A model generated the notes under the pieces. That model was not told where the DNA came from. It made no database searches and was given only the letters and a program-made list of their open reading frames with translations. From NCBI RefSeq assembly GCF_015476545.1, contig NZ_JADMKV010000032.1, forward strand, positions 1 to 49,150: 49,150 nucleotides of DNA. The letters run 5' to 3'. The translations under genes and the position numbers were made by a program. Shown one piece after another: positions 27,313 to 49,150 of the stretch (the stretch's first letter is position 1; the number at the start of each line of letters is the position of its first letter). Origin of the DNA: Methylobacter sp. BlB1 (GTDB lineage Bacteria; Pseudomonadota; Gammaproteobacteria; Methylococcales; Methylomonadaceae).

Positions 27313-27722
27313 ACTTGGCATTTCAATTTTAATGCGAGGTGTGAGTTAAGGTTCAGCTGGTTCTATCCAGAAGTATTTGGTACAGAGGGTGTATTTAATA
27401 CGGATGATGCAACGGTCTCGTCTGGGGTTGAAGATTAGCCGATCTCATCAACCTAAGGAGAAAAGTGAAGGAGCATTAGAAGTTGCGATTGAGATGGCGT
27501 TTACGGATTATCTGGGTATCAGCGTGTCATGCCGTTATCCGATGGCACGGCATTACTCAAGCTGATGCTCTAGCTTGCTACCAGTTAGTTAATGCTCGAT
27601 AATTTTTCTGCATCATTAGCATTAGTAGGCGCCGCTCAGCTACGTTAAAAAAGGAAGCCCCAAGCAGCGCCGGAGTGAATATAACAAGTAGAACAAATCA
27701 GCTCATAATTGGAGAAAATCTT
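27313..27722. other. Intergenic region before the di-haem gene
   Basis: A 62-codon plus frame at 27377-27565 (KSEGALEVAIEMAFTDYLG) has no recognised family and no ribosome site. The rest is non-coding. The di-haem gene's ribosome site GGAG lies near 27710. No terminator or named element is seen. Confidence 0.3.
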
Positions 27723-29897: not shown

Positions 29898-31115
29898 GTG
29901 GAGCAAAAAGAAATTAAGGGCATCTACGCCAATATCCCTGACAAAATCGAGACGATTGATTGCACCTTGCGCGATGGAGAACAGGCGCCGGGCGTCTGGT
30001 TCTCGCTGGAAGAAAAGCTAAGGTTGGTAAAGTTATTATCGGAAGCGGGGGTTGATGTTCTGGATGCGGGCTTTCCGGCCAGCAGCTGCGCCGATACCGA
30101 GGCTATGCAGGAAATGAAAAGCATGGGGCTGCGCTCAAGCATAGGCGCAACCGCCCGCGCCGTTCATAACGATATTGTCGCGGCCGAAAGAGCCCATGCC
30201 GATGAAGTGTTTTTGTTCATTCCGACCAGTGATTTTCGTATTCAGCAAACCCTTGGCGCAGACCGGTCCAAGGCGCTCGGCATGCTCAAAGCCGCGGCCG
30301 AAGAAGCGGCCGGCAGGGCCATGGGCGTCAATCTGGTTTTCGAGGACGCAACACGGGCAAGCTTTTCATCATTGATGCTTTTTATGAATACATTGCTGGC
30401 CAGTGTACCCATAAAGAGAATTATTGTTTGCGACACGGTCGGCTGTACTTTTCCCTACGCCATGGAGCGGTTGATAGCGCACCTATACGATGCGGTCCCC
30501 AAAGACGTCAGGCTGTGTGCTCATTGCCACAACGATTTTGGTCTGGCTGTCGCCAATACGCTGGCCAGTGTCGCTGCGGGCGCATCCAGCATTACCTGTA
30601 CTGTCAATGGCATCGGGGAACGCGCCGGAAATGCCGACCTGGCGGAGACTATCGCCGCTCTGGAGCATCTTTTGTTCGTCGGACATTCAATTCGTCCCGA
30701 CTATCTGCCGGTTCTGGCCAGGGAAGTTGAGCGGATCAGCGGCATTCATACCAGTCCGACCAAACCTGTCACCGGCTTTAATGTGTACCGTCACGAGTCG
30801 GGCGTACATGTCGACGGCATGCTCAAAAATGCAAAAAGTTATGAATATCTGCCTTCTTCATGGGTTGGCGCGCAAACCGAATACGTGCTGGGCAAGCACA
30901 GCGGCGCCGCGCTGGTGCGCCATCTGTTGAAACAGGCCAATATCGACGCAGAGGAAGAAATGGTCCATCAGATACTCGGCAGCGTCAAGAAGGCTATGGA
31001 AAAACGCGGCAAGGAACGCCACAAACAAGCTTACAGTGATTGCCTGCAGTTTCGTACCCAGGCTTTGTCAGGCGTGAGAATTGCCGATTTTCTCGCCCAA
31101 CATGTCAGTGACTGA
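29898..31115 (+). CDS. Homocitrate/2-isopropylmalate synthase-family enzyme
   Basis: 405 residues from GTG 29898 after AGAGGG. TIM-barrel signature [13 protein letters not shown] at 21-33 with Arg25-Asp26, and metal ligands His209 and His211 in [23 protein letters not shown] and [18 protein letters not shown] follow, then a short C-terminal domain. Length and the last motifs resemble NifV and archaeal AksA rather than full LeuA, which has a longer regulatory domain. It condenses a 2-oxo acid with acetyl-CoA. CDTVGC replaces the usual specificity segment, so the 2-oxo acid cannot be named. The LeuC- and LeuD-like genes next to it carry out the isomerisation step. No 3-isopropylmalate or homoisocitrate dehydrogenase is seen. 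Confidence 0.85.
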
Positions 31116-31130
31116 TTCGGAGATAGTATT

Positions 31131-32381
31131 GTGCGGGAAACATTAAGCGACAAGGTCATTCGCAGCCATGCCTTGAACGGCACCGGCCAGGAAGACTATG
31201 TGCATGCCAGGATAGATGCGCTACTGGGCCATGACGCAACCATTGCTTTGCTTATCAATGAGTTCGAGCGGCGCCAATTATCCATTTGGGACAAGAGCAA
31301 AGTCATTTTTACCAATGACCATTTCTCACCGGCGGCCAGCATTGAACGTGCCGATATTTCCGCCAATTTTCTGCGTTTTTCCCGAAACCAGAAGATAGAC
31401 CACTTATTGGTGGATAAAGGCATTTGCCACCAGTTGCTGGTCGAAAACAGCCTGTGCCAGCCGGGCAGCCTGATTGTCGGCGCCGACAGCCATACCATTA
31501 TGGGCGGCGGATTGGGCGCTTGCGCCACCGGCATGGGCTCTACCGATATTCTGTTCGCGCTGGCCACAGGCACGACCTGGCTGCGCAAGCCGAAAACGAT
31601 ACGCGTCATTTTCCACGGCAGCCTGCCTGAAACCTGCAGCGGGCGGGATATCATCCTGGAGCTGCTGCGCCTGCTGGGCGAGGACGGCGCCCAGTATCGC
31701 TGCCTCGAATTTCACGATCATGCCCAGCCCAAATTGTCTCAGGATGACCGTTTCGCGATCGCCAATATGGCGGTTGAAATCGGCGCCAAGTTCGGGGTTT
31801 TTGTTCCCGACGAGATTACTTTGGCTTACTGTCATGCGCGCGACAAGCAGACACCGGGCAATTTGGTGCTGCCGGATGCCGATGCCGACTACGAATACAC
31901 CCTGGAGCTTGACTTATCAGCGCTCAGCCCAAGAATAGCCAAGCCCTGGTCGCCGGCTAATGTAGTCGCGCTCAGCGAGCTTGACAGCATACCGATCAGC
32001 ACGGCTTTCCTGGGCTCCTGCTCCAGCGGCAGAATCGAGGATATTCAGGAGGCCGCCGAAGAACTGGAGGGAAAAACCATTCATCCCGACGTGCGCCTGA
32101 TCATTATTCCGGCCTCAATCAATATCTTCAAACAGGCGCTGGACAAGGGTTATGTCAAAACCCTGACCGAAGCCGGGGCTATTTTCAATCAAAGCAGCTG
32201 CGGGCCGTGCGGCGGCATAGACAAGGGCGTATTGGGCTCCACCGATGTCTGTATTTCCACGTCCAACCGCAATTTTCGCGGGCGCATGGGGCATTGGGAC
32301 AGCAGGACCTATCTCGCCAGCGCCAGGACGGTGGCGCGGGCGGCACTAAAAGGTTGTATCAGCGGAGATTTATATTCATGA
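31131..32381 (+). CDS. LeuC/AksD-type hydro-lyase large subunit
   Basis: 416 residues, GTG start after GGAG. The length fits the archaeal-type large subunit of 3-isopropylmalate dehydratase/homoaconitase rather than the longer bacterial LeuC. Iron-sulfur cluster ligands are in [12 protein letters not shown] and [28 protein letters not shown] and [12 protein letters not shown] are further family signatures. With the small subunit encoded next it moves a hydroxyl group by dehydration and rehydration of the condensation product. Its TGA overlaps the ATG of the small subunit, so the two are made in equal amounts. Confidence 0.88.
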
Positions 32382-32878
32382 ACAGTATCCAGGGCAGCGT
32401 CTGGTTATTTGGCGATAACCTCAACACCGATGTGATCCATCCGCCCAATTGTTACAGTCTGGACCCGGTCGTGGTCAAGCAGGGCCTGTTTTCAAAACTG
32501 GACGCCACGCTGCAATCCCGCCTGAAGCCGGGCGATATTCTAGTGGGCGGCAAGAATTTCGGCTGCGGCTCCAGCCGGGAGACGTCCATTCGAAGTCTGT
32601 TGCTGAATGAGATAGGCGCGATTGTCGCAGTCGATTTTGCGCGCATTTTCTTCCGAAATGCCACCAACAACGGCCTGCCTTGCCTGCAATTTGCCAATGC
32701 CGAAGACAAGCAGAAGCTGGCTGAAGGCGAAACCTGGACGATCTCTCTCGATGACTGGACGTTGACAAGCAAAACCGGCTTGACCATTCCTTTAGTGCCG
32801 GCCGGTTCCTTTGTCAGGAAAATCTGGTCGGAAGGCGGTTTATTAAATCTGTTGCCGGCTTCGGCTGAAGACGCATGA
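32378..32878 (+). CDS. LeuD/AksE-type hydro-lyase small subunit
   Basis: 166 residues from ATG 32378 (ATGA overlap with the large subunit). [11 protein letters not shown] and [14 protein letters not shown] are the swivel-domain signatures. In characterised archaeal enzymes the loop after NTD/DTD sets specificity: YLRT for homoaconitase, YLVY for isopropylmalate isomerase. Here residues 24-28 are NCYSL, matching neither. That is a visible sign of an unusual substrate. The gene's stop overlaps the next ATG (ATGA at 32875), tying the module to the binding-protein-like gene. Confidence 0.88.
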
Positions 32879-33891
32879 CGCAAGCAAAACTTTTTGACAA
32901 ACCCGAATGCCTCGATGTGATGACCTGGGCCGGAAAATGGGGAGACAGCCTCGAAAAGGTGGTGTCGGCCCGTTTTACCGAATTGACAGGCGTGCCTGTC
33001 AGGCATCATACGAACATCGGCCTGCGTTTGCCGGAGCGGCTTCATGATGCGCTGCGCACCCGAGAACGCCCGCCTTATGACGTGGTCTGGTCCAATGCGG
33101 TACCGGCGGTCGCCATGGCAGAACTGGATTATTGCCAAGTGTTCGATGAAGATGACATGCCATCACTGGCTGAGCTTTATGAGCGCGCCCGGCCGACGGG
33201 CTTTGTCGACCGGCTGGTGTTTCCCTACAGCGTGCATTATGTGCTGGTCTATTTAAAGCCGGCCGTCGAGGCTCGTGCGCTCAAAAGCTGGGACATCCTC
33301 ATGGAGCAAAGGCATGCCGGCAAGATCGCCGTTTACCCGAACGGCAAGGGGTTCTATCCGATTGCCCAGGTGCTGGGCGGCGGCAGTATTGATAGCATGC
33401 CTGAAAACATGCAGCCCTGCTGGAATTACTTGGCCGGGTTCCGGCCCCGGATAGCCGTTCTGGATTACAGCATCGGCATGGAATCCCTGTTCAGGACGGG
33501 AAGTATCAATCTGTGTTTCCGGGCCTTGCCGAATGCGCTGGGCTTTATTGAAGCGGGGCTGGATGTCGGCTGGACCCTTCCTGAGGAAGGCACCTCGGAT
33601 ACCACCGACGCGCTGTGGATTCCGCAGCATGTGCCAGAAGATCGCGCCTACTGGGCAAGGAAATACATTGATGTCGCTCTGTCCGCCGGCGTGCAAAGCG
33701 AATGGTGCAGCAGATTAGGAGCTTTGCCCGCCAACAAGAGAGCTGAAGCTTCGGCTATTTTCGATGGGCCGGGCTTCCCGCGCAACATGGATGACACTGG
33801 CGGTTTTCTGTACGTGCCTGACGCTGTGATGTGGCGACACGAAGCCCAATGGGAAGCGATCTTCGAACAATTGCCATCGGTAGGTTGCTGA
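32875..33891 (+). CDS. Cytosolic protein with periplasmic-binding-protein fold
   Basis: 338 residues. Sequence resembles PotD/iron-type extracellular solute-binding proteins: DVMTWAGKWGDSLEKVV, YDVVWSNAVPAVAMAE, LVFPYSVHYVLVYLKP, KIAVYPNGKGFYPIAQVLGG. It lacks any signal peptide or lipobox ([14 protein letters not shown]), and no ABC transporter gene is nearby. Similar folds without export are known as enzymes, for example the THI5/NMT1-type pyrimidine synthase. ATGA overlap with the LeuD-like gene argues for a cytosolic role in the pathway, as an enzyme or a ligand-holding protein. Catalytic residues cannot be assigned. Confidence 0.65.
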   Translation: MTQAKLFDKPECLDVMTWAGKWGDSLEKVVSARFTELTGVPVRHHTNIGLRLPERLHDALRTRERPPYDVVWSNAVPAVAMAELDYCQVFDEDDMPSLAELYERARPTGFVDRLVFPYSVHYVLVYLKPAVEARALKSWDILMEQRHAGKIAVYPNGKGFYPIAQVLGGGSIDSMPENMQPCWNYLAGFRPRIAVLDYSIGMESLFRTGSINLCFRALPNALGFIEAGLDVGWTLPEEGTSDTTDALWIPQHVPEDRAYWARKYIDVALSAGVQSEWCSRLGALPANKRAEASAIFDGPGFPRNMDDTGGFLYVPDAVMWRHEAQWEAIFEQLPSVGC

Positions 33892-34061
33892 AAAATTCGA
33901 CGATTTGCCATTGGCCTAGTTAACAGGCCGTTTTTGCCGCTACATTCCGTCTCGTCTCAGCGCATCAGATGCAGCAATTTTTATAGTGAGTCAAAAGATC
34001 TCATTCAGCTGATTTCAGGCGACGGCTCATTATGCTGGTGCAACAGAACCGGCGAGCTATC
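33892..34061. other. Short gap before the second half of the cluster
   Basis: 170 bases with no gene. It precedes the 100-bp repeat and probably separates two transcripts: the keto-acid module and the long downstream operon. Confidence 0.4.
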
Positions 34062-34160
34062 CAGGTAAATAGATCACACTTTACATGTGTAATTTTTCAC
34101 AGATTCCGTCGGCCTGTTTCTTCATACTATTTCACAAGGTTCGATGTTCGACAGAACTCG
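34062..34160 (+). promoter_or_regulatory. 100-bp repeat copy II, upstream of the GHMP-type gene
   Basis: Aligns with 27212-27312 (CAGGTAAATAGATCACAC, GTGTAATTTTTCACAGATT, TTTCTTCATACTAT, TTCGATGTTCGACAG). It ends exactly at the likely ATG of the next gene, so it occupies its promoter and leader. No clear -35/-10 pair is visible. Confidence 0.5.
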
Positions 34161-35294
34161 ATGAGTGAATCAAACTTGAGATGTCATGCTATGACCGATA
34201 AATCTTCCACCGATAAATTATTTCTTCCGGGACAGGATTTCACAATCCGTCCGGAATGGCGAAGAACAGCACAGCCACAGTACGCACAAGCCCTGGTTTA
34301 TGCGCCCGGCAGAGTGCATTTTTGCGTATTCGATTTTTCCAAAATGGGCCCCGGCCTGGGCGGCGGGGGGCTCGGAGTCTCCACGTCAACCGCGGTCAAT
34401 AAACTACTTGTTTCCAGAAAGCGCAATGCCAGTCAGGAAATGACTGCCACCACACGGCATCTGGTGCAGCTTTTTAAGGAACTGGTCAATTACGCCGACG
34501 ACGATATTTTTGTCGACATACAGGAAAAGATTCAGTTTTCCCATGCGGGCCTTGGCTCCAATGTCAGCCTGAATACGGCTGTGATTGCAGGGCTGAATGC
34601 CTTGTTCGGCAGTCCTTTTTCCGTGGAAAACATGTGGGACATCATCACCCGTAATTACGTCGAGAACGCCGCGGACGGCCATTCCATTTATCGCGGGCTG
34701 GATACCGGCGTCGGCGAGGCCTGCCTGTTGTATGGCGGTCTGGTATGGATCGCCGAAGGGGAGGGCATGGGCGATGGACGGTATATCGGCAATCTGGCCA
34801 CCGATGGCCTTTGGATAGTGACCGCGGTAGGCGATGTCGGGAAATTGTCCGGTGATGTGCTCAAGGCGTTCGGCGCCGATGCGGATATGTCCGGAAAAAC
34901 CGAAAGCGAAGTCGTTGCCGGCAAATGCAACGAGTATCAACGCCAGTACGGCGATGCGCTTCACGCGGTGCTGCACAGAATGCGAGCCGATCTGTTGAGA
35001 AATGATCTGCGTGGTCTTTTATCGACTTGCTGGGACATGAATGAAGTCGGCAACATTAAAGTGCTGGAAGGCATCTATGAGCCCGCCATTTTGCATAAAC
35101 TGGTCAAAACCCTGCGCAATGCAGGAGCCTTATACGCCGGCATGAGCAGCGCCGGTCCAGGGTTTTTCGCGTTTGCTGATTCAGAACACAGTGCGCTAAG
35201 GCTGCAATCCGTTCTGCAGGACCGGTTTGGCGATTATTTCAATAATTTCGCCGTGGGTCAGGCGGGCTCAAAACTGAGCATCTATCTGGATTAG
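34161..35294 (+). CDS. GHMP-kinase/beta-RFAP-synthase-like protein
   Basis: 377 residues from ATG 34161; the longer frame upstream translates the repeat, and a second ATG at 34191 is possible. ALVYAPGRVHFCVFDF and GPGLGGGGLGVSTST begin the fold, and QFSHAGLGSNVSLNTAVIAG is the glycine-rich GHMP loop. A C-terminal GAGAxYxGMSSAGPG segment completes it. The nearest layout is beta-ribofuranosylaminobenzene 5'-phosphate synthase, an enzyme of methanopterin assembly, which uses PRPP. It is not next to other methanopterin genes here, so it is likely a paralogue that performs phosphoryl or phosphoribosyl transfer in this pathway. Confidence 0.7.
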   Translation: MSESNLRCHAMTDKSSTDKLFLPGQDFTIRPEWRRTAQPQYAQALVYAPGRVHFCVFDFSKMGPGLGGGGLGVSTSTAVNKLLVSRKRNASQEMTATTRHLVQLFKELVNYADDDIFVDIQEKIQFSHAGLGSNVSLNTAVIAGLNALFGSPFSVENMWDIITRNYVENAADGHSIYRGLDTGVGEACLLYGGLVWIAEGEGMGDGRYIGNLATDGLWIVTAVGDVGKLSGDVLKAFGADADMSGKTESEVVAGKCNEYQRQYGDALHAVLHRMRADLLRNDLRGLLSTCWDMNEVGNIKVLEGIYEPAILHKLVKTLRNAGALYAGMSSAGPGFFAFADSEHSALRLQSVLQDRFGDYFNNFAVGQAGSKLSIYLD

Positions 35295-35343
35295 TGCCCA
35301 TACCGAACTTCAATCATCAAGTCCATCAGAGAACACGCTTAAA

Positions 35344-35652
35344 ATGACACCGCAGGCTGAACATCATTTGACCAGGGATCATATTTTTACCGTTATGCAG
35401 GCGCAGCTGAAAAAGCTGGCCGACAGCTACGAGACCATACCCGAAGAGATCCATTGGTCCGATTCCATTATGACCGATCTGGGCTTTGACTCGATAACCG
35501 TGGTCGAACTTTGCTGCGCTGTTGAGGAAGCCCTGCAGATAAAGGAACTGCCATTAAACCAGTGGCTTAACGAACAATCGGAAAAAGACGGTGAGCGTTA
35601 TACGATTGCCTCATTCGTTGATCTGGTTCTCAGCGCCAATGCGCCGCATTGA
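35344..35652 (+). CDS. Acyl carrier protein
   Basis: 102 residues. The phosphopantetheine attachment site is Ser50 in DLGFDSITVVEL. An acidic four-helix body surrounds it, with a tail slightly longer than in a standard ACP. It would carry the acyl group activated by the fatty acyl-AMP ligase at 42862-44577. It stands directly before the kinase-like gene (16 bases) and has no ketosynthase neighbour, so the chain is probably not assembled here but received ready-made. Confidence 0.85.
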   Translation: MTPQAEHHLTRDHIFTVMQAQLKKLADSYETIPEEIHWSDSIMTDLGFDSITVVELCCAVEEALQIKELPLNQWLNEQSEKDGERYTIASFVDLVLSANAPH

Positions 35653-35668
35653 CAGGGAGTAGACTGTC

Positions 35669-36382
35669 ATGGAACAGGTATCAACAGCACTGCCGTTCGA
35701 GGCCATCGGCACCCGCCGTGCCAATGCGCTGTCCCTGCGGCCACACGGACTGCCCGGCACGTTAATAACGCTGTGCGGCATTGATGGCGCGGGCAAAACG
35801 TCCACCATAAAGGCCATCACGGATTATATCGGCAGTCAGGGCCTGCCGGTATTCTGCACCTACACGCCCACCGAGCGGGTCAGAACCAACAGCTTGTTTC
35901 GCGCTTTGGTTGACGCCGCGGACGACAAGGCGCGCAGCCAGATAGACATTCTCGGCCTGTGCCTGACCATTCTGGGGGATTTGATCCAGCACATCAGCGA
36001 CACCATCATCCCTCATCTTGAGCAGGGACATGTCGTGATCTGCGACCGCTACATCTACACCAGCCAGGCCGAAGTCCACAGCCGGGCGGCCGATGAAATT
36101 CCCAAAACCGTGCTGGCCTATATCGCCCGGCACGTCATACGTCCTGACCTGGCCATCGGCATGCATATCGATCCGGATACGGCCAGACAGCGCATACAAC
36201 AGCGCGAGCATGAGCGGGACAAACCGCTTGATCTCGAGTTCATGAAAATCCAGGCGGAGGCCTATCTCAATGTCGCGCGCGACAACGGGCTGCTCATGAT
36301 TACAACCGATGCGCCGCTGGAGTCCACTTTTGCCCTGCTGAAGCCCAGCCTGGATTATTGTCTGGCAAGGTATAAAAAATGA
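35669..36382 (+). CDS. Thymidylate-kinase-like P-loop kinase
   Basis: 237 residues. The P-loop GIDGAGKTS lies at 37-45 and the DRY-like CDRYIYTSQAEVH in the middle. A lid region contains RIQQREHERDKPLDLEF. The fold is that of thymidylate kinase (Tmk), but residues 1-30 are extra. A housekeeping Tmk would not be expected in such an operon, so a changed acceptor is likely: a nucleotide or a pathway intermediate bearing phosphate. The next gene begins in its stop codon (ATGA), showing tight coupling. Confidence 0.75.
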   Translation: MEQVSTALPFEAIGTRRANALSLRPHGLPGTLITLCGIDGAGKTSTIKAITDYIGSQGLPVFCTYTPTERVRTNSLFRALVDAADDKARSQIDILGLCLTILGDLIQHISDTIIPHLEQGHVVICDRYIYTSQAEVHSRAADEIPKTVLAYIARHVIRPDLAIGMHIDPDTARQRIQQREHERDKPLDLEFMKIQAEAYLNVARDNGLLMITTDAPLESTFALLKPSLDYCLARYKK

Positions 36383-37326
36383 TTTCCAACAGCCAAAGCG
36401 AACAACGGCGTAAAAAATTCGCCGGCGTGTTGCCGGCTCTGTGTTGGTTTCGCTCTTATGCCCGCACCCGATTGCCTTTCGGCAGCCTTATTCTGCCGCT
36501 GGCGCTGAGCTTTCCTTTATCCTGTATTTTATATCATAGACTTAGTGGTCAACCAATTAACCTCAGTCTCGTATCTGTCGCTGAATGGTTGAGCTTCATT
36601 CTGCTTTTTGTCCAGTTGCGCCTGATCGATGACCTGGATGACGTGCAGGATGATCACCGTAATCAACATCAGCAAAATGAGCTGACACAGCATTTATCCA
36701 TGCTGCTGATCATCACGGCCAGCACGTTAATCGTGCTGAACATGGCTTCCTTCAGGACCCTGTCGGCGGTTATTTTTTCAACCTTGATCTCATACGCCGG
36801 GCCGTTCCTGATCAAGCGCTTTCTTCCTCCGCATCCGGCCAGCCTGATACTGGGCTGGCTGGTTTTTGAAGGGGCTCCGGCGTCCTTTTTTGTTTACATC
36901 TATTTCGCCTGGTTAAGCCATTCCCCGGCAGAAGCGCTCTCAATCACGCAGATAGCCCCGGTGGCCGGCATATTCTGGCTGGCTTACGAAATCTGGAAGT
37001 TTTCCCGCAAAGTGCATGTTAATGCCATGCAGCCCTATTTTCTGCCAAAAAAAGGCGTCAGGGTGGTGTTGAGTTTATTGCTGGTTCTGGCGGCGGCCTT
37101 GATGGCGGCCTTGGCCGACATGGCTGATTTTTCAGCCTTCGGACGTTACAGCGCCGGTTTGTTGCCTCTGGTTTTTTTAGTCTGGATGAACAGCACATGG
37201 CCTGATCTTTCAGGGCTTGAGGGCCGCGAAACGATCACGGCGCCGGCTTGGAACGGCATGAGCTTTCTGGTCATCTTTGAAATCATGCTGGGCATTGAAT
37301 TTATTTTTGAATGGGTACGGTTATAA
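36379..37326 (+). CDS. UbiA-like integral membrane protein
   Basis: 315 residues with about eight or nine membrane helices. The only acidic cluster is RLIDDLDDVQDDHRN at 81-95, matching the first D-rich motif (N/DDxxDxxxD) of UbiA-type prenyltransferases. The second acidic motif is less clear: a YEIWKFSRKVH segment occupies its place. UbiA proteins attach isoprenoid or other activated groups to aromatic or lipid acceptors in the membrane. If active, it would join the water-soluble head and the lipid part. The weak second motif could mean altered chemistry. Confidence 0.65.
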   Translation: MISNSQSEQRRKKFAGVLPALCWFRSYARTRLPFGSLILPLALSFPLSCILYHRLSGQPINLSLVSVAEWLSFILLFVQLRLIDDLDDVQDDHRNQHQQNELTQHLSMLLIITASTLIVLNMASFRTLSAVIFSTLISYAGPFLIKRFLPPHPASLILGWLVFEGAPASFFVYIYFAWLSHSPAEALSITQIAPVAGIFWLAYEIWKFSRKVHVNAMQPYFLPKKGVRVVLSLLLVLAAALMAALADMADFSAFGRYSAGLLPLVFLVWMNSTWPDLSGLEGRETITAPAWNGMSFLVIFEIMLGIEFIFEWVRL

Positions 37327-37328
37327 CT

Positions 37329-38411: not shown

Positions 38412-38429
38412 CCGTCAGGGAGAATGTTG

Positions 38430-40100: not shown

Positions 40101-40113
40101 AACAGGACAGGAT

Positions 40114-42792
40114 ATGGAACATAGCATGATTGCACCGCTCACCCCGGCAAATCGTCTCGAAGATATTGAACGGTTTGCTGGCAACAAGGGGAAATCCCTT
40201 TACCTGCTAGGAAACAATGGGGTTCCTGTGCCTGCCTGGATCATCCTGGGCACGGACGTCTTTCAATACTACCGGAAAGCGGTCGGTCTCGATAAGGTGA
40301 TTGCGGCTCTTTTAGAGAGCTTCAATGCGGACAATGCCGGCGACATAGCGGCTCAGATTCAAAATGCCGTGCTGTCGGCACCGCTGCCCGAAACGGTCAG
40401 CGCCTTGATCAAGGAAGCGCTGACTTCATTGGGGGAGGGGCCTGTCGCCATTCGCTCTTCCGGCAAGGAGGAGGACAGCAAGGACTTTTCCTTTGCCGGC
40501 CAGTTTGATACGTATCTGGGCATCGAAGGCCTGGATGACATCCTGCTCCATGTGCAGAAATGCTGGGCATCGGTGTATTCGGAGCGCTCGCTGCTGTATC
40601 GGCACCGCCACAATCTGGGCTTTGCCCATATCGATATTGCCGTCATTCTGCAACGGCTGGTCATGGCCGACCGCAGCGGCGTGGTATTTACCGTCAATCC
40701 CGCCAGCGGCAATGCCAATGAACTGGTCATCAGCGCCGTTTACGGCTTGGGGGAAGGACTGGTTTCAGGATTGGTGGACGCGGATACGGTCGTCGTCGAC
40801 AAGCGTAACGGCGCTCTGATCAGTCAGGTGATTGGGGAAAAAGCCCAGCAGGTAGGGCCGAACGGCAACATCAGCGATGTCCCGCCTGAGGCCCAGCAGC
40901 AATTGTCCCTGAGCAGCGAAAACATACAGGCGATCTGCGCGTCGGCCAGGCAGATCGAGCAGAACTTCAAAGCGCCGCAGGATATTGAATGGTGCCTGCA
41001 GGAAGGCCGTTTATGGATACTCCAGGCCAGGCCGGTCACGGCTTTCAAAGAGGAACCGAAAGGCGATTTTCAGATTTGGGACAATTCCAACATTATCGAG
41101 AACTATCCCGGTATCGTCAGTCCGTTGACCTTCACGTTCACACAAAACCTGTATTCGACAGTGTTTCGGGAATACTGCCGCCTATTGCGCATTCCCGAAA
41201 AACAGCTCAAGGAAATGGACGGCTTCCTCGGCTCGGTGCTGGGCTATATGAACGGGCGGGCCTATTACAACCTGCTGCATTGGTACAAACTGGTCGGCAC
41301 CAGCCCGTTTTATAACCTGGGCCATAAAATGCTGGAAGTCCAGATGGGGCTGGACGAGTCGCTGGACCTTGTCGCCTGCGAGGAAAAAATCCAGCCTTAC
41401 CACGCCGATTCCCGCCTTGAGTATCTTTGGATTCGCGCTTTGAGCGGGGCAATGTTTTTCTGGTATTTTTTTACGCTGAAAAAGCAGGTGCGCAAATTCC
41501 GTGCGGCCTTTTACAAACTGTACGAGACCTTCAATGCCATTGACTACAGCGAATTGCCCGCCGACCGGATCTATGCCCACAGCAAGCAGTTCGAGCAGGC
41601 GATTATCGCCCGTTGGGGCATCATGATTTCGCTGGAATCCTCCATCGGCTTGCCCTATGGCTTGTTAAGGCTCCTGATCCGCCGCTGGCTGCCCGATGCG
41701 CCTGACTGGCTGGAAGTCGCCGTAATCGGCGGCATTCATGATATGGAATCCATGGAGCCGGCCTTGAAAATGGCTGAGCTGGTCGGCCATGCCAGACAGA
41801 ATCCCGAATGGGAGCGCATTATCAGCCAGACGCCGGCAAAGCAATGCAGCCAAGCGTTGGCCGCGGCGGGAGCCGATGCGTTTCTGGCCCGGATTGACGC
41901 CTACATTGCCGCTTACGGCTATCGCAGCAACAATGAGCTGAAGCTGGAAGAGCCCGATTTGCGCGAGGAGCCCGGCGTATTGTTTGACATGCTGAAAGTG
42001 GCCCTGGCCACAGGCGCCAAAGAGCAGGGCGCGCCGGCGGCCTATGAGCGCGATCTGAAAGCGCTGCTTGATAAGGGACTGAATCCCGTGCAGCGCGTTC
42101 TGTTCAATATTGTCTTGCGCAAAGTCCAGTCTGCCATTCAGGCGCGGGAGACCGTGCGTTTTTGCCGCTCCCGAACGTTCGGCGTCTTCAGAAACATGTA
42201 CCGGGCCATAGGCAATGACTTTGCCCGCCATGGACTGTTTGACGACGGGCGGGATATTTTCTATCTGCGCCTTGAAGAATTGAAAGGCTGCTTCGAAGGC
42301 ATGGTTTCTGCCCGTGAGATAAAACCTTTAATTGTTCAGCGCAAGGCCGATATGGACGCTTATCGCGCAATGAAAGCCTTGCCACCGCGTTTTGTCACCT
42401 TCGGCTCGGTGCTCGGCTGGCTGCAGCGATGGTCGGAAACGGATGGTCAGCAGCATGAATCGGCCGCAGCCGATGACGGCAGCCGCGAGCTGCGCGGCAC
42501 GGCCTGTTCCCCCGGCTTTGTTGAAGGCCATGTCCAGATCGTGCAGGAGCCCGGCGAGTTCACGGGCGGCATCCTGGCCACTTACCGCACGGACCCGGGC
42601 TGGGTGGCCGTGTTTCCGTTTGCCGAGGCGCTGCTGATCGAGCGCGGCAGTCCGCTGACGCATGCGGCGATTGTCGCCAGAGAAGTCGGTTTGCCCACGA
42701 TCGTGCAAATACCGAAACTGACCCAAATGCTCAAATCCGGCATGCGGGTCAGAGTCAACGGCCAGTCAGGCACGGTCACCATTCTGGACTGA
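40114..42792 (+). CDS. PEP-synthase/rifampin-phosphotransferase-like enzyme
   Basis: 892 residues from ATG 40114. The N-terminal third is an ATP-grasp/PEP-pyruvate-binding domain (AIRSSGKEEDSKDFSFAGQF, VFTVNPASGNANELVI). The last 90 residues are the swivelling phospho-histidine domain with His850 in RGSPLTHAAIVAREVG. The middle (about 330-750) lacks the PEP synthase TIM barrel and resembles the substrate domain of rifampin phosphotransferases. The enzyme would move the beta-phosphate of ATP through His850 to a small-molecule acceptor. It follows the nucleotidyltransferase gene by 13 bases and lies in the middle of the operon. Confidence 0.82.
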   Translation: MEHSMIAPLTPANRLEDIERFAGNKGKSLYLLGNNGVPVPAWIILGTDVFQYYRKAVGLDKVIAALLESFNADNAGDIAAQIQNAVLSAPLPETVSALIKEALTSLGEGPVAIRSSGKEEDSKDFSFAGQFDTYLGIEGLDDILLHVQKCWASVYSERSLLYRHRHNLGFAHIDIAVILQRLVMADRSGVVFTVNPASGNANELVISAVYGLGEGLVSGLVDADTVVVDKRNGALISQVIGEKAQQVGPNGNISDVPPEAQQQLSLSSENIQAICASARQIEQNFKAPQDIEWCLQEGRLWILQARPVTAFKEEPKGDFQIWDNSNIIENYPGIVSPLTFTFTQNLYSTVFREYCRLLRIPEKQLKEMDGFLGSVLGYMNGRAYYNLLHWYKLVGTSPFYNLGHKMLEVQMGLDESLDLVACEEKIQPYHADSRLEYLWIRALSGAMFFWYFFTLKKQVRKFRAAFYKLYETFNAIDYSELPADRIYAHSKQFEQAIIARWGIMISLESSIGLPYGLLRLLIRRWLPDAPDWLEVAVIGGIHDMESMEPALKMAELVGHARQNPEWERIISQTPAKQCSQALAAAGADAFLARIDAYIAAYGYRSNNELKLEEPDLREEPGVLFDMLKVALATGAKEQGAPAAYERDLKALLDKGLNPVQRVLFNIVLRKVQSAIQARETVRFCRSRTFGVFRNMYRAIGNDFARHGLFDDGRDIFYLRLEELKGCFEGMVSAREIKPLIVQRKADMDAYRAMKALPPRFVTFGSVLGWLQRWSETDGQQHESAAADDGSRELRGTACSPGFVEGHVQIVQEPGEFTGGILATYRTDPGWVAVFPFAEALLIERGSPLTHAAIVAREVGLPTIVQIPKLTQMLKSGMRVRVNGQSGTVTILD

Positions 42793-42861
42793 GGGCTGAA
42801 CCGATCAGTCTTTTATTGCCGAACGATCCCTTATCCATTTTGAAAAAGCCGGTTTGCATTT

Positions 42862-44577
42862 ATGAGTGAAACCCTTGCCGATATTTTGTTTGCACTGCCG
42901 CACGACGAAGAGCGCGGCATGCGTTTCATTACGCAACAAAACGAAGAACACTATTATCCCTGGCATTTGCTGCGGCAGCAGGCGCAACGGGTCGCCGCCA
43001 ATCTGCAGTTCATGGGCGTCAAAAAAGGCGACCGCATCGCGCTGGTGATTGCCGAGCAGGAATATTTCATGCTCGGTTTTCTCGGCGCCCTGCTGGCGGG
43101 CGCGGTGCCGGTGCCCATGTCCTCGAATTTTATTGCCACGACCCGCAGCCGGCACAGTTATTTCGCCACGCTCGGCCACATCATTCAGGCCGCCGGCGCC
43201 CGCATGCTGCTGTGCATGGCGGCGCATGAAACTTTTTTGCAACAGGGTTTGCGCGATGCAAGCGGGGCAACCGTCAATCCGGCTTTGCTGGCCGTCGAGA
43301 CTTTGCTGGCAGCAGAAGGCGGCGCTTTTAATCCGCCCAAAGTGAGCGGCAGCGACCTGTGCTTTCTGCAGTTCACCTCCGGCAGCACGTCGATGCCCAA
43401 GGGGGCGATGGTCAGCCATGGCAATGTCATCGCCAACGCCAGAGCCTTTCTCGGCAATAAAGGCAGTCTGAAAAGGCGCGATGACGATATTACTCTGGGC
43501 TGGGTGCCGTTCTACCATGACATGGGACTGATGTGTTTTGGCCTGGGGCCTTTGGTGGTTGATCTGCCGGCGGTCCTGATTCCAACCGAACGCTTCGCCA
43601 GACAGCCCTGGTACTGGATGATGGCGATATCGCAATACCGCGCGTCCATCACGTTCGCCCCGAATTTTGCTTTCGATATCGCCGCCCGCCTGACGCGCGA
43701 GCGGCACTTGGCCGGCATGGATTTGAGCCGGCTGCGCGCGGCCGGCTGCGGCTCGGAACCGATAAACCCGAAAGTCCTGCGTCAATTCTCTGCCTGTTTC
43801 GCGCCGGCAGGATTGCGTGCGACGGCCCTGATGCCTTGCTATGGCATGGCGGAAGCTACGGTAGGCATTTCTTTTCACACGGTCGATGCGCCGATCATCA
43901 CCGATCTCGTCGATGCCAGCGCCTTGCGCAACGGTGAAGCGCTGCCGGCTCAGGCCGGCAGCGGGCAGACTGCGGAAATGATCAGCTGCGGGCAGGTCAT
44001 TCCTGACCACCAGCTTAAAATTGTCGGCCCGGACGGCCAGGCCTTGCCTGAGCGCCAGGTGGGGGAGATCTGTTTTTCCGGTGCAAGCGTTACGCAGGGC
44101 TATTACCGGAATCAGGATGCAACCCTGGAAAGCTACCGGGACGGCTGGCTGCACACCGGGGATCTGGGCTATATCGCCCAGGGCGAACTGTATATCTGCG
44201 GCCGGCTCAAAGACCTGGTCATTATCCATGGCGTCAACTACTATCCGCAGGATATCGAGTGGATCGCCTCGCAGGCCGAAGGGATCAGGCCCAATAAAGT
44301 GGTTGCCTTCAGCGTCATGCGCCATGGCCAAGAATGCCTGATACTGTGCGTCGAGCCCAATAGTTATAAAAATATCGAGGCCCTTAAACATGCTCTGGTT
44401 GAAGACGTCGAGAAAGGGCTGGGGCTGCGCATCAGCGAGGTCGTGGTCTTAAAATCGGGCGCTCTGCCCCTGACCTCGAGCGGCAAGGTACAGCGGCGCA
44501 AAACCAAAGCCCTGTTTGAGAACGGGGATCTGCAGGCCTATGAGGAACTGGATGAGGCGGAAAGCCTCCCGGCGTAA
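42862..44577 (+). CDS. Fatty acyl-AMP ligase
   Basis: 571 residues. The adenylate-forming P-loop FTSGSTSMPKG is at 171-181; GWVPFYHDMGL, AGCGSEPI, MPCYGMAEAT and GWLHTGDLGYI follow in order. These match FAALs (as in mycobacterial FadD and PKS-loading ligases). SSGKVQRRKTKAL near the end has the catalytic Lys. It activates a fatty acid as acyl-AMP and loads it on an ACP, here most likely that at 35344-35652. The ribosome site is weak. A separate LuxE gene follows, giving a second acyl-activating enzyme. Confidence 0.88.
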   Translation: MSETLADILFALPHDEERGMRFITQQNEEHYYPWHLLRQQAQRVAANLQFMGVKKGDRIALVIAEQEYFMLGFLGALLAGAVPVPMSSNFIATTRSRHSYFATLGHIIQAAGARMLLCMAAHETFLQQGLRDASGATVNPALLAVETLLAAEGGAFNPPKVSGSDLCFLQFTSGSTSMPKGAMVSHGNVIANARAFLGNKGSLKRRDDDITLGWVPFYHDMGLMCFGLGPLVVDLPAVLIPTERFARQPWYWMMAISQYRASITFAPNFAFDIAARLTRERHLAGMDLSRLRAAGCGSEPINPKVLRQFSACFAPAGLRATALMPCYGMAEATVGISFHTVDAPIITDLVDASALRNGEALPAQAGSGQTAEMISCGQVIPDHQLKIVGPDGQALPERQVGEICFSGASVTQGYYRNQDATLESYRDGWLHTGDLGYIAQGELYICGRLKDLVIIHGVNYYPQDIEWIASQAEGIRPNKVVAFSVMRHGQECLILCVEPNSYKNIEALKHALVEDVEKGLGLRISEVVVLKSGALPLTSSGKVQRRKTKALFENGDLQAYEELDEAESLPA

Positions 44578-44683
44578 TCCCAGGCGATCGCCGGCAGCCC
44601 GTTGCCAGAAGCATAATTCATATTCACAAAAGCCATGACTCCTAGATTGATTCAAATGACTACCCATTCCATTCAGGCCTGCC

Positions 44684-45745
44684 ATGTTCCGTTATAAAGA
44701 TCCGTTCGTACAAAACCTGGCTGAGCAGATAGCCGCCCTTATTTCAGGCGAAGCCATCGACAGAGAGTCTGTCGAGCAGGCATTGGAAGAGCTTGCCTTG
44801 GCCAACCTGCCTCAGCTTGCCGACTACTGGCGAAAAACCGGCTGCCGTCTGGGCATACCGGATGCCGCCTTTAAAAACAGTCATGTCTACTATTTTCCGG
44901 ACCAGCCCGCGGCAAGGGTTTTTCGAACCAGCGGCACCAGCGGCGCCGATAGGGGAGCCGCCTGTTATTCGCCCTTGGGACTGAAGCTGATGGACCTTTC
45001 GATCATCGAAAACGCCAGACGGCATCTTATTCAAGAACTGGACATGCCCGTCATCATCCGCTTCGTGCCTACCGTTTCACAGGCGCCGGAGATGATCATG
45101 GCTTATGGCATGGAACTGATCGCGACGACGTTTGGCGACAAGTCCCGTAGCGCTTCGGTCATCACCGGCAACGGCGTCGATTTCGAGCGTCTGCGTTCCA
45201 TTCTGGACCAGGCCGTCAGCGACGATCAGCCTGTGGTTCTGCTGGGCGGTTCGTTCGCGTTTGTAAATATCTGCGATGCGCTGGAAAAGCTCGGGTGGTC
45301 ATGGCAGTTGCCTGAAGGTTCAAGAACGCTGGACGGCGGGGGCTTTAAGGGGCGTTCCCGCGTCGTCAGGGCCGGCGAGCTGAGATCGGCCATCACGAAA
45401 ACGTTCGGCATTCCGGCCGGACGGGCTTTCAATGTCTTTGGCATGACCGAACTGGCGAGCCAGCTTTATGACGCCAATGACCGCGAGATAGGCCCGCTCG
45501 ACGAACGCCCCAAACGCAATCTGCCGTTTCTGCAGGCGCGGGTCCGGGACAGTTATACGCTGGCCTACTGCGATAGGGGCGAGGGGCTGGTTGAAATTAT
45601 GGATTCGTGCATCATCGACCGTCCTCATCGCGTATTGACCGGCGACCTGGGGCTGGCGTCCGAGGACGGCGTAGCCATTATCGGCCGAGTAGAGCGCGGA
45701 CAAGCCCGCGGCTGCTCTTTGTCTCTGGAAAGCATTAAATTCTGA
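44684..45745 (+). CDS. LuxE-type acyl-protein synthetase
   Basis: 353 residues. The signature RTSGTSGADRG (81-91) is the phosphate-binding loop. QAPEMIMAYGMELIATTFGD, and VLLGGSFAFVNICDALE lie in the middle, and NVFGMTELASQLYD near the adenylate site. In luminous bacteria LuxE activates fatty acid as acyl-AMP and passes it to LuxC, which reduces it to aldehyde. The LuxC gene follows four bases later. No luciferase (LuxA/B) or LuxD thioesterase is present, so the aldehyde is an intermediate for biosynthesis, not for light. Confidence 0.88.
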   Translation: MFRYKDPFVQNLAEQIAALISGEAIDRESVEQALEELALANLPQLADYWRKTGCRLGIPDAAFKNSHVYYFPDQPAARVFRTSGTSGADRGAACYSPLGLKLMDLSIIENARRHLIQELDMPVIIRFVPTVSQAPEMIMAYGMELIATTFGDKSRSASVITGNGVDFERLRSILDQAVSDDQPVVLLGGSFAFVNICDALEKLGWSWQLPEGSRTLDGGGFKGRSRVVRAGELRSAITKTFGIPAGRAFNVFGMTELASQLYDANDREIGPLDERPKRNLPFLQARVRDSYTLAYCDRGEGLVEIMDSCIIDRPHRVLTGDLGLASEDGVAIIGRVERGQARGCSLSLESIKF

Positions 45746-45748
45746 CTT

Positions 45749-47194
45749 ATGCCTACTAATCGTAATATTTCCTGGATACCCGCCTGGGTGGATGCCAGCC
45801 AGCTGGAAACCTTCAATGCCAATATCATCAATGACCAGGGCGGTCAGCCGTGGCGGTGCACCCGGCCCTTGAGCGATCGCTGGAGCGTCATTGCCGATGG
45901 GCTCAGAGAGTCAACGGCTGCGCTGCGGGCCATGCCCATCGCCCATATTGTCGAGACGATCGATAAAGTCACCGCCAAATGGTGTGACCGGAACTGGCCG
46001 GTGCGGCAGGCGGCGCGTGCGGCCGTCGTTGAAGCGACCGGCTTTTCTGCGGAAGCGGTTGACAGAAGCTTCGATGTCGAACTGAAAAACTACCGGGCCG
46101 ATTCCCTGTGGCGGGTGTTATACCGCGAGCTGGGCGATGCGGCAGCACTGGACGGTTTCGTGGCCGATGCCAGACTGCCGGGGCGCACTTACGCCATAGG
46201 CCCCGAGCTTACGCTGGCGATCTTTACCGGCAACGTGCCGGGCTTGCCGGCGCTGTCCATGGTCAGAGCCTTGCTGGCCAAGTCGGCAGTCATCGCCAAA
46301 GTAGCCAGCGGGGAGCCTACTTTTGCCGCCCGTTTTGCGGCAAGCCTGGCTGAAGAGGACGCGCGCATAGGCGACGCCCTGTTGGTCACTTACTGGGAAC
46401 GCCATGAGCGCGACCTGCTGAAAACCGTTCTGTCTCAGGCAGAAGCCGTCATCGCTTATGGCAGCATCGAAGCCTGCCGTTCGGTTCGGGAATTGGCCCG
46501 CGATAACCGCATTTACATGGAACACGGCCATAAGTTCTCCGCGGGGCTTGTGGGGCGCGACTATCTGGCCCGGGTCGGGGCGCCGGTCATTGCCGGGCGC
46601 ATTGCCGAGGATGTAGGCACATTCAATCAGCATGCCTGCATCGCGCCGCAGGTTTATTTCGTGGAAGGCGACAGGGCGGCCGTCCATAAGCTGGGCGATG
46701 AGCTCAGCCGGGCCATGCAGGCTTACGCCGAAAAATACCCTTTGGGCAACTTAAGGCTCAAGGATGCCCAGACCCTGCAATTGCAGCGTGCGGCGCAGGC
46801 TTGGAAGGCGACCGTCGCCGATGCCGATAGCGGCTTATGGCAGGATTCCGCGCTGAACTGGACCATAGCGATTGAAAAAGACCTGGCTGAGCACAGCCTG
46901 TCAGGCAACCGTTACATCGGGCTTATTCCCGTGGACAGTCTGGAACAGGCACTGAAAGCGCTGCGGCCCTATGGCGAATTTCTGCAGAATCTTGCCTTGG
47001 GCGCTGATGAGCCTGAACTGTCGGTTCTGGCGAGACGGGCGGCATTGCTGGGCGCCAGCCGTATCTGCCAGCCGGGACGCATGGCGGAGCCCAGCATGAT
47101 GTGGCATCATGACGGCCAGATGTGCGTCGCCGGGCTGTTGCGCTGGTGCGACATAGAAATGCACGACGCTTTACATGAACAGGAAGAACAATAA
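45749..47194 (+). CDS. LuxC-type acyl-CoA/acyl-protein reductase
   Basis: 481 residues, the usual LuxC length. It has the aldehyde-dehydrogenase fold: GNVPGLPALSMVRALLAKSA (161-180) binds NADPH, and Cys297 in FNQHACIAPQ should hold the acyl group. It reduces an activated acyl chain to a fatty aldehyde with NADPH. Its stop overlaps the start of the next gene (TAATG at 47192-47196). With LuxE just upstream (four-base gap) it forms a fatty-acid reductase pair. Confidence 0.88.
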   Translation: MPTNRNISWIPAWVDASQLETFNANIINDQGGQPWRCTRPLSDRWSVIADGLRESTAALRAMPIAHIVETIDKVTAKWCDRNWPVRQAARAAVVEATGFSAEAVDRSFDVELKNYRADSLWRVLYRELGDAAALDGFVADARLPGRTYAIGPELTLAIFTGNVPGLPALSMVRALLAKSAVIAKVASGEPTFAARFAASLAEEDARIGDALLVTYWERHERDLLKTVLSQAEAVIAYGSIEACRSVRELARDNRIYMEHGHKFSAGLVGRDYLARVGAPVIAGRIAEDVGTFNQHACIAPQVYFVEGDRAAVHKLGDELSRAMQAYAEKYPLGNLRLKDAQTLQLQRAAQAWKATVADADSGLWQDSALNWTIAIEKDLAEHSLSGNRYIGLIPVDSLEQALKALRPYGEFLQNLALGADEPELSVLARRAALLGASRICQPGRMAEPSMMWHHDGQMCVAGLLRWCDIEMHDALHEQEEQ

Positions 47195-47982
47195 TGCGCA
47201 GATTTCATTTGTTTGAAACAGTCGACTTGAACTGGTGGCCGCAGGTTTTGCGCGACGGCGTCATGGACTGGCTACGGTTTATGATAGACAGCCACAAGAA
47301 CTTCAATCTTATGGCGCCCAGGCTGCGCGATACGCTGGATAAAATGGGCACCAGCCAGATTATCGATTTATGCGCCGGCGGTTCCGGGCCCTGGCTGACG
47401 CTGGCGGCGGAACTGGAGAAAACCGGCGAGGTGCAAATTCTCCTGACCGATTTTTTCCCCAATGAGAAAGCCTTTCGCTACACGCTGGAGCAGTCCGGCG
47501 GCCGCATCCGCTTTCACCCTGAGCGCGTGGATGCCAGGAACGTGCCTTCATCGCTGAAAGGCGTGCGCACCATTTTTAGCGCGTTGCATCATTTTCGTCC
47601 TGACCAGGTGCAGGCGATTCTCGCCGATGCCGTCAACACCCGGCAGGCGATCGTGGTCATTGAGGGCTCCGATCACCGTCTATACGGCAGTCTGTTAATG
47701 CTGACCATGCCGCTGTTCATGCTGCTGTTGATGCCTTTCGTCAAGCCGTTTCGCTGGTCGCGCCTGTTTTTTACCTATCTGGTCCCCATCCTGCCAATAG
47801 CCGGCCTGTGGGACGGCATGGTCTCCATGCTGCGCACCTACACACCTGATGAACTGCGCGAAATCATCGACCGCATTCCAGGGCAGGAGGCGTTTTCCTG
47901 GGACATCGGCACGCAGGCGATCCCCGGCTCGCCCATAGGCATTACCTATCTTATCGGCACTCCAGACTCAACAGTTTCTTAA
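47194..47982 (+). CDS. Methyltransferase-fold protein with membrane segments
   Basis: 262 residues. IIDLCAGGSGPWLTLAAELE (56-75) matches motif I of SAM-dependent methyltransferases. ILLTDFFPNEKAFRY supplies the acidic residue after strand 2 and ALHHFRPDQVQAILADAV the motif-4 region. Residues about 165-215 are hydrophobic (SLLMLTMPLFMLLLMPFV, LVPILPIAGLW), probably one membrane hairpin or two helices. This is unusual for class I enzymes and would hold it at the membrane, near a lipid substrate. Its TAATG overlap with the LuxC gene ties it to the aldehyde step. Confidence 0.7.
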   Translation: MRRFHLFETVDLNWWPQVLRDGVMDWLRFMIDSHKNFNLMAPRLRDTLDKMGTSQIIDLCAGGSGPWLTLAAELEKTGEVQILLTDFFPNEKAFRYTLEQSGGRIRFHPERVDARNVPSSLKGVRTIFSALHHFRPDQVQAILADAVNTRQAIVVIEGSDHRLYGSLLMLTMPLFMLLLMPFVKPFRWSRLFFTYLVPILPIAGLWDGMVSMLRTYTPDELREIIDRIPGQEAFSWDIGTQAIPGSPIGITYLIGTPDSTVS

Positions 47983-47985
47983 ACC

Positions 47986-49150
47986 ATGAATACAAAACCG
48001 CAAATAGTGCGCAGAACGCTGCGACAGTATTTTTCCGAACTGGGGCTGCTGCTCGACAATCCCCTGTCGGGCTTTGAAGTTTACCAGCAACGCTGGGGGG
48101 ACGTGGTTCCGCTGCCGATTCCCGGCTTGCGGGCTTTTCAAATCACGCATCCTGAACAGGTGGGCGTGGTCTTGAAAATACCCCATCGGGACCAGATGGC
48201 GACCAAGTCCCTGAAAGACCTGCTGGGCAAAGGCTTGCTGACCAATCAGGAAGACGACTGGCACTGGCGGCGGCGCATCATTGCCAAACCGCTGGGGCCC
48301 AAGGCCATCACGGCCTTTGTTGATGATATGTTTCGCCTGACCGAAAGCTGGTTTATCCGGCTCAATCCGGAGGGCAGGGAAGTCGACGTGACGCCCGAAT
48401 TAATGGGGCTGGCTTTCGATATTCTGATACACACGGTTTTCGGGGCCAATATCAAAATCAACAAAGACAGCATATTGTCCTTGCTGGAACAGTATATGAG
48501 CGAATTTACCCTCGACAATACCGGCTGGCGCCGCTGGCTGCCTCCGTTCATTGTCACGCCGGGCCGTCGTCAGCGGCGCCGGGCGATTGCCGGCATGCAG
48601 GATTTGATCCGCACCGCCATCGCGCAGCGCCGGGCTGCGCCGGAAAGCGATGATCTCCTGTATCGCCTGATGACCGCCCGTGATGAAGAAGGCAACAGCC
48701 TCAATGACGAGCAACTGCGCGATGAATTGCTGACCATGATTCTGGCCGGTTACGACACGGTAGCGTTAATGATCGGTTATGCCTTGTGGCTGTTGGCAAG
48801 GCATCCTGCCATTCAGCAGCAGGTTCATGAGGAATTGAAAGCGATTATCGCCGACGGCCCCATCAATGCCGAAACGCTCGCCAGACTGCCGCTGCTGAAT
48901 GCGGTGTTGGATGAGTCGCTGCGCCTGTTTCCGCCCGCCTACATCATCGGGCGCGAGGCCGATAAAGACCTTGATCTGAACGGTTTCCAGATAAAGCGCG
49001 GCGACCAGTTGCTGGTTCCGCTGTGGGTCGTGCACCGCGATCCGCGCTGGTGGCAGGCGCCGGACGCGTTCAGGCCGGAGCGGTGGCTGAATGGCGAGAC
49101 CGCGCACCTGCCGGCCAACGCCTTCTTCCCGTTCGGCGGCGGGCCGCGCC
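47986..49150 (+). CDS. Cytochrome P450, cut by the right edge
   Basis: 388 residues remain from ATG 47986. AGYDT (254-258) is the oxygen-binding I-helix; ESLRLFPP with Glu310 and Arg313 is ExxR; FRPERWL is the PERF segment; FFPFGGGPR at the end is the start of the haem loop, whose Cys lies just outside the window. The layout resembles CYP102/CYP4-like fatty-acid oxidisers and plant-type P450s. It would oxidise the lipid chain or the assembled product. Its ATG follows the methyltransferase stop by three bases, so it belongs to the same operon, which probably continues to the right. Confidence 0.9.
   Translation, partial: MNTKPQIVRRTLRQYFSELGLLLDNPLSGFEVYQQRWGDVVPLPIPGLRAFQITHPEQVGVVLKIPHRDQMATKSLKDLLGKGLLTNQEDDWHWRRRIIAKPLGPKAITAFVDDMFRLTESWFIRLNPEGREVDVTPELMGLAFDILIHTVFGANIKINKDSILSLLEQYMSEFTLDNTGWRRWLPPFIVTPGRRQRRRAIAGMQDLIRTAIAQRRAAPESDDLLYRLMTARDEEGNSLNDEQLRDELLTMILAGYDTVALMIGYALWLLARHPAIQQQVHEELKAIIADGPINAETLARLPLLNAVLDESLRLFPPAYIIGREADKDLDLNGFQIKRGDQLLVPLWVVHRDPRWWQAPDAFRPERWLNGETAHLPANAFFPFGGGPR

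Follow-up and report, generated by a model that had tools for sequence, protein, structure and literature searches.

What, if anything, is made by a gene cluster that joins LeuA-, LeuC- and LeuD-like proteins to a beta-RFAP-synthase-like protein, a LuxE-LuxC pair and a cytochrome P450? The question is raised by contig NZ_JADMKV010000032.1 of Methylobacter sp. BlB1 (assembly GCF_015476545.1), analysed here as a stretch of 49,150 nucleotides (the window), which is one entire contig and ends within the P450 gene. Using a list of open reading frames (ORFs) combined with Pfam and NCBIfam scans, we found that 16 plus-strand genes fill the DNA from position 29898 to the contig end. This cluster is real, conserved and rare, and within the literature that could be searched it is undescribed. 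In our judgement it is very probably a working specialised-metabolite locus; that it is an intact cluster of a new type, following the particular route proposed below, is put forward tentatively, at somewhat less than an even chance.

The conservation is seen in Methylobacter luteus IMV-B-3098, the only relative found by a scan of genome contigs (LuxC 91% identical). This species possesses all 16 genes in identical order, with nearly equal lengths and 84–95% identity, and none of the 16 reading frames is broken in either species. The ratios of nonsynonymous to synonymous substitution (dN/dS) between the two range from 0.032 to 0.198 over the 16 genes (the P450 value being computed over the 388 codons present in the window) and thus show purifying selection; taken with the common gene order, they imply that the gene set is not a product of chance. 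The M. luteus P450 is full-length at 445 aa, and the gene following it lies on the opposite strand, which sets the right end of the cluster there; thus, when the window is extended rightward through this relative, as the initial annotation of the sequence had advised, the cluster stops after the P450. This following gene encodes a second M. luteus P450 (L013:8450-9880, 476 aa), approximately 48% identical to the cluster P450 and convergent with it. The cluster genes are the following:

29898..31115, plus strand: LeuA/NifV-like acyltransferase (HMGL fold, homocitrate-synthase type; PF00682 5.9e-64, HCS_D2 3.5e-18)
31131..32381, plus strand: LeuC/HacA-like aconitase large subunit (PF00330 7.2e-86; exceeds the cut-offs of NF001614, TIGR02086 and TIGR01343)
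32378..32878, plus strand: LeuD-like aconitase small subunit (PF00694 1.1e-12; TIGR02087 117.6 bits, cut-off 108.95)
32875..33891, plus strand: PotD/PotF-type solute-binding-fold protein, SBP_bac_8 (PF13416 5.4e-18)
34191..35294, plus strand: GHMP-fold protein, beta-RFAP-synthase-like (NF040726 1.6e-12, below cut-off)
35344..35652, plus strand: acyl carrier protein, ACP (PF00550 6e-6; GFDS motif)
35669..36382, plus strand: thymidylate-kinase-like protein (PF02223 2e-21; P-loop and DRY motifs)
36379..37326, plus strand: UbiA-like membrane protein, a weak assignment (DDxxDxxxD motif, seven hydrophobic segments, a 38.9-bit match with a protein annotated as UbiA)
37329..38411, plus strand: thioester-reductase-like protein of the short-chain dehydrogenase/reductase (SDR) type, NAD_binding_4 (PF07993 1.8e-44; TIGR01746 3.1e-40, below cut-off)
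38424..40100, plus strand: nucleotidyltransferase-domain protein, NTP_transf_2 (PF01909 5.8e-5; GS...SDID motif)
40114..42792, plus strand: phosphoenolpyruvate (PEP)-synthase-like protein, PPDK_N and PEP-utilizers domains, NF004881 (PF01326 1.7e-75, PF00391 1.9e-18)
42862..44577, plus strand: fatty-acyl-AMP-ligase (FAAL)-like protein, AMP-binding (PF00501 4.6e-63; NF006624 456 bits, below the cut-off of 600)
44684..45745, plus strand: LuxE-like protein (PF04443 1.9e-11; conserved Cys)
45749..47194, plus strand: LuxC-like acyl reductase (PF05893 1.9e-70; conserved Cys)
47194..47982, plus strand: methyltransferase-fold protein with one hydrophobic segment (weak PF13649, E 0.02)
47986..49150, plus strand: cytochrome P450, incomplete because the contig stops short of the haem cysteine (PF00067 5e-62; complete in M. 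luteus)

The families named in the initial annotation were recovered by these scans, with the solute-binding-fold protein (32875-33891) as an addition to its list; the methyltransferase-fold and UbiA-like names are weakly backed, the former by the E value given above and the latter by no UbiA model (nothing in Pfam or NCBIfam at 0.001). All catalytic motifs that we searched for in the cluster proteins are present, and presumably serve in their usual roles. No polyketide synthase (PKS) or non-ribosomal peptide synthetase (NRPS) core was detected among the 16 proteins by the Pfam and NCBIfam scans, as had been claimed. A search of PDB sequences with the GHMP-fold, UbiA-like, nucleotidyltransferase, methyltransferase-fold and solute-binding-fold proteins gave no match below 0.001; the best one, the putrescine-binding protein 7xjm (0.0074), is consistent with a PotD-type fold of the solute-binding-fold protein. 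Compared with the one relative aligned (Pacificitalea), the latter lacks an N-terminal leader and is therefore probably cytosolic. A PqqD-like domain suspected by eye in the nucleotidyltransferase found no Pfam match and was not used. Near full-length plasmid relatives of the methyltransferase-fold protein (47194-47982), 37–43% identical, occur in Gemmatirosa, Persicobacter, Rhodococcus and Pseudonocardia, with no match to LuxE, LuxC or LeuA beside them.

How widely is the cluster distributed? Our genome searches were samples inside one phylum, with other phyla covered by plasmid records and by the single close-relative scan. LuxC was detected at ≤1e-20 in 2/201 genomes of the order and the nucleotidyltransferase at ≤1e-5 in 2/201 genomes of the family (two of the four same-genus genomes among the matches listed), and both presences fall in the same two genomes. 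The GHMP-fold protein was found at ≤1e-8 in one of the 369 genomes of the class; no same-genus genome appeared in the results for that sample, so that M. luteus seemingly lies outside it. The PEP-synthase-like protein occurs in 1/398 phylum genomes at 1e-100 and in 2/398 at 1e-55, and the 20 kb surrounding the gene in the other genome (G662, 1e-55) contained no further cluster match at E 0.1. The GHMP-fold, nucleotidyltransferase and UbiA-like proteins had no match among 72,556 plasmid records, and the other loci that we opened have at most four gene types in common with the cluster. The cluster is thus rare within Pseudomonadota, to which phylum this claim is limited, and patchy inside the genus Methylobacter. 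Conservation of parts in scattered places holds for the LuxE-LuxC pair and the LeuA-LeuC-LeuD triad and not for the whole set. The view that no described pathway has this set still stands, with no match among the literature listed, in which coverage of subscription journals is thin; the pertinent section of a survey of Methylobacter genomes lists tundrenone, ectoine, terpenes, redox cofactors, aryl polyenes and polyketides, and that section mentions no comparable gene set (PMC12810054).

The di-haem (DHOR) gene and a tetratricopeptide repeat protein gene upstream of the cluster are also common to the window and M. luteus. The di-haem protein (27675-29201) is 89% identical in M. luteus, while two other same-genus genomes (G128, G958) contain nothing beyond weak matches to it; its gene may travel with the cluster.

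The LuxE-LuxC pair had been taken as evidence of fatty-acid reduction, a reading which its relatives do not sustain, as these are non-luminous pairs in other settings. The pair is adjacent, matches Pfam and retains the conserved cysteines, whose roles we assume to be the usual ones, and it stays far below the luminescence models (NF052251, 65.3 bits against 750; NF052244, 26.1 against 550), as do the plasmid relatives tested. Relatives of LuxC (28.4–33.6% identity) and LuxE occur in the same 27 plasmid records and, by their listed positions, side by side in all 27; in each of the four loci opened, transporter genes and a reductase gene (SDR or 3-oxoacyl-ACP reductase) lie close by. At ≤1e-15 LuxC is present in 6/396 phylum genomes, the own genome counted, and LuxE adjoins it in the other five, where no further cluster protein matched at 1e-3 within the 20 kb taken. 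This recurrence of LuxE-LuxC pairs in other settings points to a two-gene module of wider use.

Nor is the assignment of the GHMP-fold protein to phosphoryl transfer supported as it stood, since its closest relatives are beta-RFAP synthase and ForT, not a kinase. Both of these enzymes couple phosphoribosyl pyrophosphate (PRPP) to an aromatic acid. In the NCBIfam ranking, beta-RFAP synthase (NF040726, 1.6e-12) precedes homoserine kinase (4.4e-6) and mevalonate kinase (4e-5). The same genome carries a canonical RFAP synthase (MptG) on another contig, scoring 181 bits where the window protein scores 28.9; the window protein gives 23.7 bits with this MptG versus 3.4 bits with the GHMP kinase IspE of the same genome. 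A profile of MptG and ForT aligned to it over 275 columns (E 2.5e-6, probability 88.7), a comparison run with no IspE-profile control, and single-sequence hhalign was weak for both MptG (59 columns, E 0.009) and IspE (30 columns, E 0.02). When the window protein is numbered from a Met1 at 34191, the PRPP contacts of ForT (Arg19, the His99-Ser104 turn, Thr106, Arg135, Ser139 and Ser142; PMC8183095) align to its Arg41, His118-Ser123, Val125, Arg168, Thr172 and Gly175. Both arginines and the histidine turn are kept and Ser139 is replaced by Thr. Of the acceptor-site residues Asp19 and Arg26 of RFAP synthase, the latter binding and needed for para-aminobenzoic acid (PMC6787355), the Asp is kept. 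By these alignments the protein is likely to bind PRPP and to use an acceptor other than that of RFAP synthase.

The PEP-synthase-like protein belongs to NF004881 (PRK06241.2-2; 1109.9 bits, cut-off 883) and misses the cut-offs of the prodigiosin ligases (NF052631, 322.3 of 1300 bits; NF052632, 351.1 of 1350). Two plasmid relatives were found at 1e-60, in Roseinatronobacter and Streptomyces durmitorensis. Many LeuA/NifV models match the LeuA-like protein, all of them below cut-off. Among three loci with a LeuA 35–37% identical, two carry PEP-mutase-family and isocitrate-dehydrogenase-family genes and one, by its annotation, only the latter. A phosphonate cluster with an FrbC-type triad was considered and rejected, as no PEP mutase or isocitrate-dehydrogenase Pfam match was found among the 16 proteins.

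How might these proteins act together? In the route that we propose, the LeuA/C/D-like enzymes would elongate a 2-oxo acid using acetyl-CoA, with the cytosolic solute-binding-fold protein acting alongside them. The FAAL would put a (fatty) acid onto the ACP, from which the thioester reductase would free it as an aldehyde, and LuxE-LuxC would reduce a second carboxylate via enzyme-bound cysteines. The beta-RFAP-synthase-like protein would attach the phosphoribosyl group of PRPP to a carboxylic acid, which would lose CO2, and so yield a C-linked sugar phosphate; activation of this phosphate could fall to the thymidylate-kinase-like and nucleotidyltransferase proteins. The PEP-synthase-like enzyme would phosphorylate one partner and couple the halves, like prodigiosin ligases, and the UbiA-like protein, the methyltransferase-fold protein and the P450 would complete the product at the membrane. 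We infer both the lipid and the C-glycoside parts of the product, as well as the reaction of the GHMP-fold protein. The locus had been described as a lipid-type biosynthetic cluster: the biosynthetic and co-conserved character stands, and a lipid-type product is plausible given the FAAL and ACP, the UbiA-like membrane protein and the P450. The joint recurrence of parts of the set in the Roseinatronobacter and S. durmitorensis loci counts in favour of the route.

Several observations weigh against it. The GHMP-fold protein misses the curated cut-offs (TIGR00144, 28.9 of 113.5 bits; NF040726, 47.2 of 328), and of the residues discussed above, Thr106 of ForT is replaced by Val, Ser142 by Gly (as it is in MptG) and Arg26 of RFAP synthase, located in MptG by its spacing from the Asp, by Pro; these replacements point to another acceptor and perhaps another reaction. 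Nor is there an obvious source of an aromatic acid. The nucleotidyltransferase and kinase of S. durmitorensis hardly align with those of the window (best E 0.41 and 0.003) and are thus too distant to be called orthologues. Structure prediction gave unusable models, with mean predicted local distance difference test (pLDDT) values of 37 for the GHMP-fold protein, where one sequence was modelled, and 42 for the UbiA-like protein, where two were. Finally, the LeuA-to-SBP genes may form a separate unit.

The last point leads to the idea that two independent neighbouring units lie here, the LeuA-LeuC-LeuD-SBP block making a small chain-extended acid and the GHMP-to-P450 block a lipid-type metabolite, with position in common and product not. 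The single strand claimed in the initial annotation is seen for all 16 genes in the window copy, and tight packing at 11 of the 15 junctions, which overlap or are ≤16 bp long; the remaining four measure 49, 69, 106 and, between the SBP and GHMP genes, approximately 300 bp. In M. luteus the latter gap holds two minus-strand genes (L012:5714-8704; 435 and 480 aa, neither matched by Pfam), which show the two blocks to be separable, so that the cluster is not one unbroken unit and probably comprises two transcription units. Synonymous divergence (dS) is 0.90 for LeuA and 0.80 for LeuC versus 0.35–0.72 for every later gene, and LeuA-C-D triads recur without other cluster genes. Against full independence, the blocks adjoin in both species having either (the LeuA block alone was not searched in other members of the genus), and the presences of the nucleotidyltransferase and LuxC coincide in two genomes; altogether, we regard two unrelated products as rather unlikely. 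The same M. luteus insertions might suggest a relic of formerly useful genes that now drift, and M. luteus also has an HD-domain gene (L013:3090-3725; PF01966, 1.3e-6) between FAAL and LuxE that the window copy lacks, no remnant of it being seen in the 106-bp FAAL-LuxE gap. Yet, with every frame open in both species and dN/dS values as low as those given above, decay is a very remote prospect.

In another reading, which we hold to be distinctly improbable, the GHMP-fold protein acts as a genuine kinase on a small molecule, a second phosphate comes from the thymidylate-kinase-like protein and the UbiA-like protein alkylates an acceptor with the resulting diphosphate. Phytol salvage for tocopherol is the model for such a phosphorylated-lipid route. 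A GHMP fold, a P-loop kinase and an aspartate-motif membrane protein indeed lie close together, and a UbiA gene adjoins the PEP-synthase-like gene in Roseinatronobacter; a phytol-kinase identity suspected by eye for a Roseinatronobacter protein had no Pfam or NCBIfam match and was left unused. However, the stronger match of the GHMP-fold protein to MptG than to IspE, the rank of the RFAP synthase model above the homoserine and mevalonate kinase models and the weakness of the UbiA assignment itself all argue against this route. Returning to the PRPP-based route, its most specific form has a C-glycosidic nucleolipid as the product: RFAP-like C-C joining of ribose phosphate to a LeuA/C/D-built acid, thymidylate-kinase-like phosphorylation of the C-nucleotide and PEP-synthase-like coupling to a fatty aldehyde, the RFAP-synthase-like enzyme having perhaps been recruited from the methanopterin pathway of a methanotroph. 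We consider this a doubtful, speculative proposal; if true, it would represent a C-nucleoside pathway outside actinobacteria, and a lipid-bearing one.

Elsewhere in the window, positions 1-14000 form a prophage- or satellite-like stretch with an integrase-like ORF (12740-13969) and a helicase/primase-like ORF (9322-10749), both named by eye; at 1681-1861 the sequence is matched by the Rfam models for C4 antisense RNA and isrK. Consecutive aldolase-like, acetate-kinase-like and phosphoketolase-like ORFs, likewise named by eye, occupy 18798-23536.

The natural products of methanotrophs are little explored, and rule-based cluster finders may miss this cluster, a PKS/NRPS gene being absent. The enzymes on offer include an RFAP-synthase-like protein with an altered acceptor site, a seemingly cytosolic solute-binding protein and a PEP-synthase-like protein of the NF004881 family.

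As for known systems, MptG and ForT/PyfQ represent the families nearest to the GHMP-fold protein and have in common with it the PRPP-contact Arg, the His turn and the second Arg; they differ in that it falls below the family cut-offs and keeps neither Thr106 nor Arg26, and no other gene of the methanopterin or pyrazole pathways was recognised among the 16 by Pfam and NCBIfam scans. The models of the prodigiosin ligases PigC and RedH match the PEP-synthase-like protein from end to end, with scores near one quarter of the cut-offs. FrbC-type LeuA-LeuC-LeuD sets (Bradyrhizobium p1S06B, Streptomyces scopuliridis) resemble the triad in the 35–37% identity of LeuA and in aconitase-type neighbours, and differ in carrying the PEP-mutase-family and isocitrate-dehydrogenase-family genes absent from the cluster. 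The non-luminous LuxE-LuxC pairs of Pantoea, Azospirillum, lactobacilli and Priestia are adjacent, approximately 28–34% identical and keep both cysteines; unlike the cluster, the four opened loci have reductase and transporter neighbours, and no other cluster gene type except for a weak partial thymidylate-kinase-like match in one (L016). At the plasmid locus of Roseinatronobacter sp. S2, UbiA adjoins the PEP-synthase-like gene (30%) and an AMP-binding gene lies three genes off, with no match to LeuA-C-D, LuxE-LuxC, the RFAP-like protein, the nucleotidyltransferase or the kinase. In turn, the locus on S. durmitorensis plasmid p1 lacks matches to LeuA-C-D, LuxE-LuxC, the RFAP-like protein and FAAL and has AfsA, nitroreductase and two KASIII genes of its own, but it brings together genes for a PEP-synthase-like protein (27%), a P450, a nucleotidyltransferase and a thymidylate-kinase-like protein, as does the cluster.

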